Source: an uncultured Methanobrevibacter sp. (GTDB lineage: Archaea; Methanobacteriota; Methanobacteria; Methanobacteriales; Methanobacteriaceae). From it: a DNA stretch of 64,000 nt. Below the pieces are notes generated by a model that saw only the letters and a program-made list of their open reading frames with translations, did no database searches and was not told the DNA's origin. The stretch is taken from the NCBI GenBank assembly GCA_902774685.1, contig CACYJH010000008.1:1-64000 (forward strand), written 5' to 3'. The position numbers and the translations under genes are program-made. Every line of letters starts with the position of its first letter. Within the stretch, counting starts at the first letter, position 1. This document shows positions 43,710 to 63,711 of this stretch, piece by piece.

Positions 43710-44385
43710 ATGTCATTTCAAGATAATAAAATGCTAATTATGCCTGCTGTAGACATTAAAAATGGAAAATGCGTACAGCTAGTGCAAGGAGAACCTGGAA
43801 CCGAACAGGTGATAATTGAAAACCCTGAAAAGGTTGCAAGAAAATGGGAAGACTTAGGTGCAGAAGTTGTTCATGTCATCGACCTTGACGGTGCACTTGA
43901 AAGCACAACAAACATTGAAACCATTAAAAAGGTGCTTGATGAAGTAAGCGTTCCCATCCAACTTGGAGGAGGCATAAGAAGCATTGAATATGCAGAGGAA
44001 TTGCTCAACCTTGATATTGATAGATTGATTATTGGAACCATGGGAATCAAGAACCCAGAGACAATAACAAAGCTATCTGATGAATATGGCAGTGAAAGGG
44101 TGATGATTTCCCTTGACAGCAAAGACAATAAGGTTGTCATAAATGGTTGGCAGGAAAAGATTGACAAGTCTGCAACTGAAATAAGCAAAGAATTCCAAGA
44201 TCTTGGTGCAGGAAGCATATTGTTTACAAATGTTGATGTCAGTTGTGTACTCTGGAGGAGTTACAAGCTTGGATGACTTGAAGCAATTGCAAACTACCGG
44301 CGCTAAAGGAGTTGTAATCGGTTCAGCATTATACAAAGACAAAATAAATCTTGTAGACGCTTTGAAATACCAAGACATTAAATAA
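43710..44385 (+). pseudogene. hisA: hisA, disrupted by an out-of-frame internal deletion
   Basis: HisA isomerises ProFAR in histidine synthesis. The first frame gives MPAVDIKNGKCVQLVQGEPG with the catalytic Asp, the QLGGGIRS phosphate loop and VMISLDSKDNK, up to GAGSILFTNVDV near 44240. It then reads unrelated residues to a stop at 44276. The +1-shifted frame resumes exactly at VVYSGGVTSLDDL and runs to a natural end at 44385. Roughly 15-25 codons between NVDV and VVYSGG, including strand/helix 6, are missing and the frame is lost. Start ATG after AAAGGA. Either a real null allele or an assembly fault. Confidence 0.9.
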
Positions 44386-62543: not shown

Positions 62544-63711
62544 TTATTCTTCTTGTAATGCATCATATAAAACTGGTAAGAATGCTCCTACATCAGTTAC
62601 AATACCTACAACTTGTGCACTACCTCTATCTGAAAGTTTAGTAACGGTAGATGGATTGATATCTACACAAATACTTTTAACTCTTGAAGGCAATAAGTTA
62701 CCAGTTGCAATGGAATGTAACATTGTGGAAATCATAATGACCATGTCAACTTCTTGAGCATATTTACGCATTAGTTTTTGAGACTCTACAGTGTCTGTAA
62801 TTACATCAGGAAGTGGACCATCATCACGAATGGAACCTGCCAATACAAATGGAACATCATTTTTAATACATTCATACATGATTCCGCTTTTTAAGGTTCC
62901 GTCTTCTACAGCTTCTCTAATAGAACCGGATTTATTGATTCTATTGATTGCTCTCATATGGTGAGTATGACCATGAGCAACAACTTCACCGGTCTTTACA
63001 TTTACACCAAGAGAAGTTCCGAATTGATCGCATTCAATATCGTGAGTAGCTAAAGCGTTACCTGCAAAAATAACATCGATGATTCCATCCTTTACAAGTT
63101 GTGCAACGATTCCTGCAGAACCTGTATGCACAATAGCTGGACCTCCAACAAGTGCAATCTTTCCGCCTTTAGCCTTGACATTCTTAATCTCAGTTGCAAC
63201 ATCATTGATGATGCTCATCATAGGTTTTTCAGAAGAAACTTCACTGTTCATGAATTCAAATACACCTTGCTTGCCTCTTGATCTTTGAGGTGGTGTGATT
63301 TTAACTCCTTCCCTACCAACTACAATCAAGTCTCCTTTCTTAATGTCTGCAATTGGTTTGCATCTGGCAGTCTTGTTTTCTTCATCTATAACGATTAAAC
63401 AGTCCATTTCAATTTCATCTACAAGAATCCATTCATCTTTATAATAAATATGAGTTACATGATGGCTTGTTGAGTAAAAACCTTCTGGAGCTACTTGATC
63501 TTTTGGAGAAGGGACTAAATTGACCTCTTCAATTTCAGATATTGAAACCCCAATAAAGTTAAGTTCATCAAGAAGTATCAGATTTGCGTTTTCCTATATC
63601 AAACTCTAGTATATCAAAGTCTCCACCCTTATCCATAATAATATCCATGGTTTTAGGAAGAGTTAAAGAATCAATGATATGACCAGACAATTCTATTTCT
63701 CTTTTATACAT
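62544..63711 (-). pseudogene. TIGR00300 family (ornithine cyclodeaminase-like) gene with internal frameshift deletion
   Basis: The family is reported to be archaeal ornithine cyclodeaminase. The first frame starts at the ATG at 63711 (after AGGAGA) and gives [20 protein letters not shown] to [11 protein letters not shown], then stops at 63568. A second frame resumes at [20 protein letters not shown] and runs unbroken to 62544 through the conserved [28 protein letters not shown] and [10 protein letters not shown] blocks. About 20 codons between KSDTS and the LLDEL helix are missing and the frame is lost. Everything else is intact, so the lesion is recent or an assembly fault. The open part from 63407 alone would be annotated as a 287-aa protein. 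Confidence 0.85.

Follow-up and report, generated by a model that had tools for sequence, protein, structure and literature searches.

A 65-nt out-of-frame gap in hisA of a Methanobrevibacter draft genome, probably made in assembly

The hisA locus

The hisA gene occupies positions 43710–44385 on the + strand of the window, by which we mean the whole stretch of DNA analysed (64 000 nt). The window belongs to a draft assembly (2.07 Mb, 61 contigs, 87.13% complete), the nearest named relatives of which are Methanobrevibacter. The reading frame of hisA switches at the junction 44239|44240, so that the gene is present in two parts:

43710..44239, + strand: hisA 5′ part, codons 1–176 plus two bases of codon 177 of ∼246; frame 3
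44239..44240, + strand: hisA junction, exactly 65 nt absent in comparison with 11 intact relatives; 0 nt microhomology
44240..44385, + strand: hisA 3′ part, from VVYSGG to the native stop; frame 1

The reference set consisted of 11 intact same-genus Methanobrevibacter genes, each exactly 741 nt (246 codons) long. When aligned to these, the window gene differed in length at a single place, a 65-nt gap with conserved flanks. The alignment confirms the preliminary description of this DNA, which had proposed a short out-of-frame deletion in hisA, with two HisA frames abutting at ∼44240 and the segment between them absent. The ORF of the 5′ part, as called mechanically, continues out of frame to 44276, while the 3′ part opens inside the Pro codon preceding VVYSGG.

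The two parts match the NCBIfam profile PRK13585.1 separately, 43710–44240 at profile positions 2–172 of 241 and 44242–44382 at positions 195–239 of 241; an intact relative (L010) matches positions 2–238 without interruption. The single continuous frame over the whole profile (PRK13585.1 / TIGR00007) expected of a functional HisA is thus not found in the window gene. The first 177 residues are 90–99% identical to those of most same-genus relatives. We observed an intact frame in all same-genus relatives with a complete hisA region, and the 18-mer at the hisA junction was absent from 18 of 18 other same-genus genomes.

Remaining hisA sequence and other his genes

Compared with the nearest relative, the related draft G009, the codons of hisA carry 36 synonymous and 3 non-synonymous changes, and therefore no decay is seen. 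The pattern of changes in the remaining codons resembles that left by purifying selection, in line with the earlier remark that the rest of hisA is undegraded.

The nearest relatives of the two parts differ. Positions 43710–44239 are nearest to G009 (95% at the DNA level, with 87% to L091/L018), while positions 44240–44385 are nearest to L091/L018 (93%, with only 89% to G009). This difference could reflect an old recombination, a mixture of strains in the assembly or, given how short the stretch is, chance. Residue 145 (∼44142–44144) is Asn, with Lys in 11 of 11 intact same-genus relatives.

Besides the broken hisA, a whole-genome PF00977 search found two full-length members of the superfamily, neither of which could be taken as a second hisA. 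The match on contig C5 is HisF (TIGR00735) and that on C21 is a HisA/HisF-related protein (TIGR00734), both below the HisA cut-off. Hence the second copy for which the preliminary description had advised a search was not found: this search revealed no other hisA in the 61-contig, 87.13%-complete assembly. The missing segment was present nowhere else in the assembly at DNA or protein level, and we rejected the idea that it sits on another contig. The assembly also contains hisG, hisB, hisD and hisF, all with open frames.

Similar gaps elsewhere in the assembly

A survey for deletions covered 1.24 Mb of this genome, set against the genes in 1.28 Mb of G009 (502 genes compared). We observed eight sharp deletions of ≥12 nt, six of them out of frame, with sizes of 53, 65, 67, 79, 110 and 146 nt. 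The proportion out of frame is near the 2/3 expected without selection. Identical bases at the breakpoints did not exceed chance, with an overlap of 0 nt at hisA and 0–1 nt at the other five deletions that shift the frame. Frame-changing indels of 1–11 nt were absent from all 502 compared genes, and on this ground homopolymer-type long-read errors were rejected as the cause; N-filled scaffold gaps were rejected as well, as none occur in the DNA checked. We discarded a candidate gap of 61 nt at C2:88242, the flanks of which were too diverged.

Besides hisA, the following genes carry such breaks, the last of them found when the window's genes were set against two relatives, G009 and G004:

C12:9884: RNA polymerase subunit B (rpoB, TIGR03670), 146 nt absent, out of frame; sole copy found in the genome
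C16:1409: class I lysyl-tRNA synthetase (lysS, TIGR00467), 79 nt absent, out of frame; sole copy found in the genome
62550..63711, − strand: ornithine cyclodeaminase (TIGR00300), out-of-frame gap of 53 nt at 63574 with 1 nt of overlap

No cell could survive such breaks in RNA polymerase subunit B and lysyl-tRNA synthetase, which are essential. Since the breaks in rpoB and lysS would be lethal if real, the assembly must make spurious sharp deletions. The signature seen at hisA thus recurs in this assembly in genes that are both essential and single-copy.

Gaps of this kind are not confined to one draft. In G009, rated 99% complete, we observed nine sharp deletions in 501 genes, six of them out of frame; given this similar rate, the frequency of out-of-frame gaps is not special to the assembly studied here. 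The pattern in G009 points to what may be a general weakness of such drafts. Out-of-frame gap sites in G009 include C6:186805, C6:177931, C9:102893, C9:153437 and C1:154686, and among the gapped genes are two named by eye from sequence, those of an isoleucyl-tRNA synthetase and of a flavodiiron-like protein.

Origin of the hisA gap

Judged from these sequence comparisons, the break in hisA is very probably an assembly artefact, one of a systematic class of short deletions, rather than the mark of a histidine auxotroph; most likely, hisA is intact in the organism itself and histidine is produced. The draft would carry sporadic sharp losses of ∼50–150 nt, at which two correct stretches have been joined without real overlap, and one such loss would have fallen inside hisA. 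We infer that the gap arose in assembly, in gap closing or through chimeric reads. This reading is favoured because the hisA gap belongs to the same size class as the gaps that are necessarily artificial, and like them lacks overlap, is out of frame and is free of decay; by this analogy, the gap in hisA and those in the essential genes would share an origin. Real gene decay usually starts with 1–2-nt indels and stop codons. As small frame-changing indels are what one would expect to see most often in real pseudogenes, their absence from the survey also favours an artefact.

Some considerations weigh on the other side. The case for an artefact is argued from lethality at other loci and would extend to hisA by inference only, the similar rate in G009 means that such gaps do not single out this assembly, and a rumen methanogen taking up histidine could in principle tolerate the loss of hisA.

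The best surviving alternative, which we consider unlikely, is a real and recent out-of-frame deletion of 65 nt, produced with no notable homology through end joining or slippage of the polymerase, that would make the strain or the sampled cells histidine auxotrophs. The gap is clean, it affects the only copy of hisA, and the gene is otherwise undegraded, as one would expect of a very recent event. Still, this assembly shows the same signature in rpoB and lysS, and there it cannot be of biological origin; each of the other his genes tested is kept, and the frame is intact in all same-genus relatives with a complete region. The preliminary description had left the choice at ‘recent or artificial’; the second of these terms is now favoured over the first, given that cuts of this kind also occur in the assembly in single-copy genes that no cell can lose. 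It is improbable, too, that a rumen-type Methanobrevibacter lineage otherwise keeping its histidine pathway has very recently suffered a real loss of hisA and become a fresh natural auxotroph fed by its community. A search of the literature on histidine auxotrophy in Methanobrevibacter and on this class of artefact returned nothing useful.

The preliminary description had attributed the break to recombination between two GTTGATGT-like repeats flanking the lost segment, with an additional loss of 1 nt. VDV and VDI codons do flank the segment in the intact relatives, most often as GTTGATGTG on the left and GTAGACATT on the right, but these stretches match at only 5–7 of 9 bases. They lie 63 nt apart, and recombination between them would therefore give an in-frame loss of 63 nt. 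We compared the junction with the strain's own ancestral hisA sequence as inferred from relatives. Over 70 nt around the junction, the best 63-nt deletion leaves 20–26 mismatches with the window, while the best 65-nt blunt deletion (cut after base 530) leaves 2–8, with 0 nt overlap. Nor does ‘GTTGATGTC’ hold as a copy of the repeat, since its last C already belongs to the downstream CCAGTTGT (Pro-Val-Val). As the junction sequence contradicts the proposed microhomology, we give this model hardly any credence.

That the two pieces form a functional split or recoded HisA, expressed by frameshifting or as two subunits, is extremely improbable: both pieces retain HisA sequence without decay, but ∼22 residues between strands 6 and 7 are gone, which puts the barrel beyond rescue by recoding, the sole listed ORF for the second piece starts at TTG in the other frame inside the first piece, and no relative shares the arrangement.

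Implications for draft genomes

Auxotrophy should not be deduced from one broken biosynthetic gene in the draft genome of a methanogen. Short out-of-frame gaps occur in ∼1% of the compared genes in two drafts of the genus, indispensable genes among them. Checks for contamination and fragmentation miss these gaps, which may depress estimates of completeness and produce false pseudogenes.

Comparison with known systems

Both pieces in the window match the family of the archaeal HisA (ProFAR isomerase, PRK13585.1 / TIGR00007) of Methanobrevibacter. The window gene differs from it in lacking 65 nt near the 3′-end, which leaves no full-length frame in the assembly. The second comparison is with short deletions made by assembly in draft or metagenome-assembled genomes, seen in this draft and in G009 as sharp out-of-frame gaps of ∼50–150 nt without overlap, genes whose loss is lethal included; from these the gap in hisA shows no distinguishing feature.
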